Positions 51,911 through 52,118 of a stretch of DNA of 64,000 bases are shown piece by piece (within the stretch, counting starts at the first letter, position 1; every line of letters starts with the position of its first letter). This stretch comes from Carbonactinospora thermoautotrophica. Its GTDB lineage: Bacteria > Actinomycetota > Actinomycetes > Streptomycetales > Carbonactinosporaceae. A program made the position numbers and the translations under genes. Under the pieces are notes generated by a model, which ran no database searches, was not told where the DNA came from, and saw only the letters and a list, made by a program, of their open reading frames with translations. The stretch covers positions 1-64,000 of the forward strand of contig NZ_JYIJ01000019.1 of NCBI RefSeq assembly GCF_001543895.1, given 5' to 3'.

Positions 51911-51962
51911 AAGAAAAGAAAAGGCTGGCCGGGCGCCTCGGCGAGGCGGCCTGCGACCAGCC
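51911..51962 (-). terminator. Rho-independent terminator of the peptide gene
   Basis: On the minus strand, ggctgg (51962-51957) and ccagcc (51928-51923) close a stem-loop with an inner gccgcctc/gaggcgcc helix, followed by ttttcttttctt (51922-51911). It begins 21 bases after the peptide stop codon. Confidence 0.75.
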
Positions 51963-51983
51963 GTTCGGCTGCGCGATCGCGTT

Positions 51984-52118
51984 TCAGGCGAATGCCATGG
52001 CGCTCTCTTTGGTCGGGCCGAACGCGTTCGCGAAGGCAGCCTGGATCACCTTGCTGACGAGTGACTCGACGAGCATCACGAGAGCCTTCGCCAGGACGGA
52101 GGCGGCGAAGTCAGCCAC
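51984..52118 (-). CDS. 44-residue hydrophobic amphipathic peptide
   Basis: GTG 52116-52118 follows GAGGAGAGG at a good distance. The peptide begins MADFAASVLAKALVMLVESL and continues with SKVIQAAFANAF before a polar tail, ending at TGA. Charged residues (three acidic, three Lys) fall on one face of a predicted helix; no Cys, leader or membrane anchor motif is evident. A terminator follows immediately, so this is a single-gene unit. Functional options are a leaderless membrane-active peptide, a small membrane modulator, or a structural peptide. I do not recognise a family. It is not in any longer ORF frame. Confidence 0.6.
   Translation of the reverse strand: MADFAASVLAKALVMLVESLVSKVIQAAFANAFGPTKESAMAFA

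Follow-up and report, generated by a model that had tools for sequence, protein, structure and literature searches.

A 44-residue peptide is, to near certainty, encoded by a real gene lying between a Crp-like regulator and a giant P-type ATPase in the 64-kb stretch of Carbonactinospora thermoautotrophica DNA analysed here, referred to below as the window. As judged from homology, the peptide can be assigned with very high confidence to a previously undescribed actinobacterial family of tiny helical proteins, and its gene is very probably a member of the Pho regulon under PhoP control. The best explanation of the locus, to which about even chances are given, is that phosphate starvation induces a membrane micropeptide made of a single helix, and that this peptide tunes the giant Ca2+-type pump.

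The peptide gene and its family

The features on which the analysis is based are the following (window positions):
50727-51422: Crp-like regulator
51911-51962, minus strand: putative intrinsic terminator, a long G+C-rich stem-loop CGGCUGGUCGCAGGCCGCCUCGCCGAGGCGCCCGGCCAGCC followed by a T-rich tail UUUUCUUUUCUU
51984-52118, minus strand: 44-aa micropeptide gene with a GTG start (read as M), identified by homologues and coding-type substitutions
52123-52131, minus strand: Shine-Dalgarno sequence GAGGAGAGG, 4 nt before the GTG, by sequence reading
52157-52165/52180-52188, minus strand: inverted repeat of 9 bp within what is presumed to be the 5' leader, lacking conservation
52212-52229, minus strand: PHO-box-like direct repeat GTTCACC-TCGC-GTTAACC, at -111 to -94 relative to the GTG, 13/14 core positions
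52261-56637, minus strand: P2/Ca2+-type P-type ATPase of 1458 aa, by Pfam, NCBIfam and PDB matches
56717-57151, minus strand: 144-aa protein with one apparent transmembrane segment LAYYTGLGMVAAFGVIDWPVAVAIGAGTWIAQR, read from the sequence, the third member of the recurrent neighbourhood

Translation of the minus strand from 52118 to 51984 yields VADFAASVLAKALVMLVESLVSKVIQAAFANAFGPTKESAMAFA. A sequence-only reading of this region had proposed a real small gene with a good ribosome site and its own terminator, located between crp and the ATPase, and these points are all borne out. Dozens of species preserve the frame at the protein level, so that the outcome which the reading had named as refuting it, absence of the frame from relatives, did not occur; GAGGT or AGGAG motifs occupy the position equivalent to the Shine-Dalgarno sequence in the relatives. 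The stem-loop and T-rich tail directly after the gene (MFE -44.6 kcal/mol, z = -2.0) make a convincing candidate for an intrinsic terminator. It was not picked up by a consensus terminator scan because its stem is long and interrupted. T-run terminators were not seen after the peptide genes of the relatives, so that the T-rich tail is a trait of the window member; strong hairpins are present in many of them. The inverted repeat announced for the 5' region does exist but is not preserved among relatives: a repeat of at least 7 bp was found there in only 5 of 37 relatives, with sequences unlike that of the window. No sigma-70 consensus promoter was detected by a consensus scan. With an upstream box and a terminator of its own, the micropeptide gene probably forms a separate transcription unit.

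An initial search of 40 relatives in the same order returned no homologue, an outcome that by itself would have pointed to an orphan. At the class level, short ORFs such as MSEFLASVLAKAALMLLEALLVRIVQSLASSIIRPAGVQFA were found immediately 3' of the same kind of ATPase; full-length short frames were retained, and chance matches within long coding frames were dropped. Six ATPase C-termini were then aligned, 80 loci were gathered from named genomes, and all the ORFs of these ATPase loci were screened by profile searches with the peptide family. A group of matches (f19/g38, L065-L069) was rejected as unrelated, the similar segment MGDFLSSVLPPGLIDV... being located inside 93-aa proteins where inspected. 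The homologues retained are 31 to 49 aa long and occur in Streptosporangiales, Pseudonocardiales and some Streptomyces, nearly always as a single copy. Within the order of the host, the peptide was encountered in 10 of 324 genomes, of which nine belong to the Streptomyces family.

In an alignment of 41 members, position 1 is invariant, L9 is found in 40, K or R at position 11 in 38 and R23 in 36, while position 18 is E in 37 and Q in the other 4. Substitutions at codon positions 1, 2 and 3, counted over 13 independent close pairs, amount to 72:28:121, which is the pattern expected for a translated frame. The suspicion that the peptide resembles no known family was well founded: it has no match in Pfam, NCBIfam or PADLOC and none among PDB chains better than E 0.7, and the family as a whole likewise gives chance-level hits only. 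A plasmid collection gave no match, and Rfam returned sub-threshold chance hits only.

A single helix spanning residues 2-33 is predicted by AlphaFold2 (mean pLDDT 83, about 90-96 for residues 1-30), in agreement with the helical character first attributed to the peptide. The balance of charges attributed to it at the same time holds for the window member (net charge 0) and not for the family, whose mean is about +1.7. The best 19-residue hydropathy mean is about 2.0. A conserved polar stripe, S/T7-K11-E18-T22, and R23 interrupt an otherwise hydrophobic helix; as K11, E18 and R23 fall inside it, unaided membrane insertion is uncertain.

A PHO-box-like repeat upstream of the peptide gene

The direct repeat at 52212-52229, absent from the sequence-only reading, has an 11-nt period and is the top-scoring PHO-box match of the window; shuffling of the window leaves 0 or 1 site scoring at least 12. 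The runner-up of the window lies at 41307-41324 on the minus strand and scores 12/14. PHO boxes are composed of two direct repeats (PMC7244524) and the core unit is GTTCACC in S. coelicolor (PMC4415409). The promoters of the relatives display the form GTTCACC-N4-GTTCACC with the same period; third units often read GGTAACC. When each of 47 peptide promoters was compared with its own shuffles, a site was significant (p<0.05) in 40, almost always on the coding strand and near -90 to -113. Across the 80 loci, which represent 2.19 million strand-bases, 31 of the 42 sites scoring at least 12/14 fall between -130 and -70 of a peptide gene.

Assignment of the box to the ATPase was considered and rejected, since all six sites scoring at least 13/14 in the 80 loci precede a peptide gene and the box moves with the peptide. 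Peptide genes located apart from the ATPase still have it (12-13/14 in Microbispora, 13/14 in L101, where the peptide gene lies upstream of the ATPase on the opposite strand). Among relocated peptides, a box scoring at least 12/14 was present at 18 of 22 loci, a set that includes some of the same Microbispora, and at none in shuffles. The box thus follows the peptide rather than the ATPase and does not co-regulate the two.

Known Pho genes served as a positive control. The host genome contains seven sites with at most one mismatch; as judged from the ORFs, one is that of the peptide, one precedes pstS (GTTCACC-TTTT-GTTAACC), one covers a start codon and the rest are likely coding. A second pstS-type gene of this genome is preceded by a site with two mismatches. 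In a complete Microbispora genome of 7.4 Mb only three sites were found, one of them coding, one before pstS and one before the peptide gene. Perfect sites are located 92 nt before pstS in Nonomuraea maritima and 125 nt before pstS in genome G199. Comparable sites therefore precede pstS in four genomes, all the products being PstS by NCBIfam. At another locus of Nonomuraea maritima (L271, G330 C20:435), a 14/14 box is followed by a transposase-like ORF near the contig end, perhaps because a Pho-regulated gene was interrupted by an insertion. No clear box is seen around phoU-phoRP in the host genome. In this region an OmpR-type regulator (Pfam) adjoins a kinase-like ORF and is divergent from a PhoU-like ORF, kinase and PhoU being named from sequence and arrangement only; the host would accordingly possess a PhoRP-type two-component system. 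The literature searched mentions no family member among Pho targets.

The giant ATPase and its association with the peptide

The ATPase lies upstream of the peptide gene, and 142 nt separate its stop codon from the GTG of the latter. The nearest PDB entry to the C-terminal core of the ATPase is a Listeria Ca2+-ATPase (E 2e-109), followed by SPCA1 and SERCA, and the motifs PEGLP, GGNLGE and NLLTD, which hold Ca2+ ligands in SERCA, can be read in its sequence. The protein is assigned to the P2/Ca2+ type, with Ca2+ as a candidate substrate. About 600 extra residues precede the usual core in this ATPase (52261-56637, minus strand), the first 100 of which display a weak CopZ-like match only.

The 144-aa protein shares the motif YxGLGxxAxxxxI[ED]WPVAxAIGxGTxxAxR with its homologues and matches no Pfam or NCBIfam family. 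Most loci have such a homologue on the upstream side of the giant ATPase; the Microbispora homologues stand beside the peptide, with the ATPase elsewhere. The immediate neighbours of the peptide gene in the window are the ATPase and the Crp-like regulator, and no immunity or export gene is found beside it. Further along, at 47482-49404 on the minus strand, the window carries two adjacent cell-wall lytic genes, a GH25 lysozyme and a peptidoglycan-binding/M74-like endopeptidase.

A peptide gene on the same strand is located downstream of the ATPase in 47 of the 80 loci, mostly about 100 nt past the ATPase stop. A copy elsewhere in the genome was detected in 21 of 28 ATPase genomes devoid of a local peptide, so that 69 of the 76 tested ATPase loci come from peptide-bearing genomes. 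Among 395 genomes sampled from the class, where peptide presence was defined by full-length matches with E below 1e-10, the peptide was found in 13, a close ATPase in 22 and both in 12. The ATPase is thus present in 12/13 genomes with the peptide versus 10/382 without it (Fisher p=3e-16). The association is inflated by shared ancestry, and the ATPase profile was derived from peptide-bearing genomes.

The exceptions are three Streptomyces genomes (G005, G511 and G418) that carry the peptide and its box together with only a distant ATPase homologue (E~1e-45). The locus of G005 (L247) shares its neighbours with that of G547 (L240), a GntR-type regulator on one side and a gene of about 970 aa on the other, and lacks the ATPase in between, which seems to have been deleted from it. 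This pair constitutes a natural ATPase deletion that is useful for the question of peptide independence.

Proposed mechanism, alternatives and implications

The mechanism that best accounts for the locus can be summarized as follows. Under low phosphate, PhoP in its phosphorylated form, or a closely related OmpR-family regulator, would bind the GTTCACC direct repeat and give rise to a short monocistronic transcript, with its 3' end at the terminator. The peptide, folded as the predicted helix, would enter the membrane or lie on it. There it would most likely bind the giant Ca2+-type ATPase and tune it, an effect that could be either stabilising or inhibitory. The identification of the ATPase as the target is put forward with an even degree of belief and disbelief, given its genetic association with the peptide. 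The three Streptomyces exceptions and a box that belongs to the peptide rather than to the pump speak against it.

A competing view, which we consider unlikely though still the most serious of the alternatives, retains a Pho-regulated membrane micropeptide and directs it to another protein of the Pho response (PhoR, Pst) or to a phosphate-poor membrane, the linkage to the ATPase being historical. Maintenance of box and peptide in genomes in which the ATPase is missing or lies apart would fit such a view, as would the Microbispora peptide, which stays beside the 144-aa protein and not beside the ATPase. It fits less well with the strong co-occurrence with one ATPase type at the genome level even if unlinked, and the peptide is rare in the order (10/324) whereas Streptomyces generally possess Pho systems, which indicates that it does not belong to the Pho core. 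The regulator rather than the target is at stake if the repeat is bound by another OmpR-family protein (MtrA, AfsQ1 or similar) and the peptide escapes phosphate control. An 11-nt period is common to OmpR-family sites, including the MtrA and AfsQ1 consensus, and this possibility also draws on the GGTAACC third units and on the lack of a box at phoU-phoRP of the host genome. It is nevertheless rendered improbable by the core unit, which is that of the PHO box in S. coelicolor (PMC4415409), and by the pstS genes of four genomes, which are preceded by comparable sites.

The sequence-only reading had suggested that the peptide could be leaderless and membrane-active, and a secreted product of this kind, a bacteriocin for instance, would agree with the short, amphipathic and hydrophobic character of the peptide and with its own terminator. 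Leaderless bacteriocins and phenol-soluble modulins are indeed short amphipathic helical peptides devoid of a leader; no homology to them was found, however, and the regulatory context here is conserved. Broad conservation, nearly constant single copy, steady context with PHO box and linked ATPase, the conserved E18, the lack of adjacent immunity or transport genes and of any bacteriocin family match (Pfam, NCBIfam), and the net charge of 0 in the window member leave very little room for that proposal. Least credible of all, and close to negligible, is a non-coding origin, in which the ORF would have arisen by chance within an RNA or a conserved 3' portion of the ATPase transcript. The usual location of the gene just 3' of the ATPase and the strong downstream hairpins of several relatives could be cited in its favor; it is contradicted by protein-type substitutions, by conserved residues and ribosome sites, by the preservation of the ORF in relocated copies and by the lack of an Rfam family above threshold.

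Control of P-type ATPases by small proteins, as proposed in the preferred reading, has precedents in MgtS-MgtA, KdpF and sarcolipin/phospholamban (PMC10925321). The 31-aa MgtS of E. coli binds and stabilises the P-type Mg2+ pump MgtA (PMC10925321). Like MgtS, the peptide is a small protein tied to a bacterial P-type ATPase, here by genetic association; it differs in that no sequence relation was found, the pump is of another class, and the gene usually lies beside the pump and is preceded by a PHO box. KdpF of KdpFABC and sarcolipin/phospholamban are single-helix partners of P-type ATPases, and the ATPase of the window shares the P2/Ca2+ type with SERCA. KdpF is, however, an operon-encoded subunit and the SERCA regulators are eukaryotic, the partnership considered here is a presumed one, and the searches made revealed no homology. 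No Pfam or NCBIfam match places the peptide in the KdpF, MgtS or sarcolipin families, and no paper connecting a small protein with this ATPase was found in the literature searched. With the Streptomyces Pho regulon the gene shares two 11-nt units of GTTCACC core about 100 nt before the start, as for pstS in the host and its relatives; the host phoU-phoRP without a clear box and the lack of a family member among the Pho targets of the literature searched are points of difference.

A broader and more tentative proposal, somewhat short of even chances, is that the peptide represents a bacterial counterpart of phospholamban/sarcolipin, a PhoP-induced single-helix regulator of a Ca2+-type ATPase. 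Throughout actinobacteria, the pumping of divalent cations would then be coupled to phosphate starvation, and the 144-aa one-TM protein might serve as another accessory subunit. For this undescribed family of micropeptides, low phosphate is predicted as the inducer, PhoP as the regulator and the giant Ca2+-type pump as the partner. The Pho regulon controls antibiotic production in these bacteria. If the proposed mechanism is true, this regulon would be joined to cation transport, and a bacterial model of small-protein control over SERCA-like pumps would become available.
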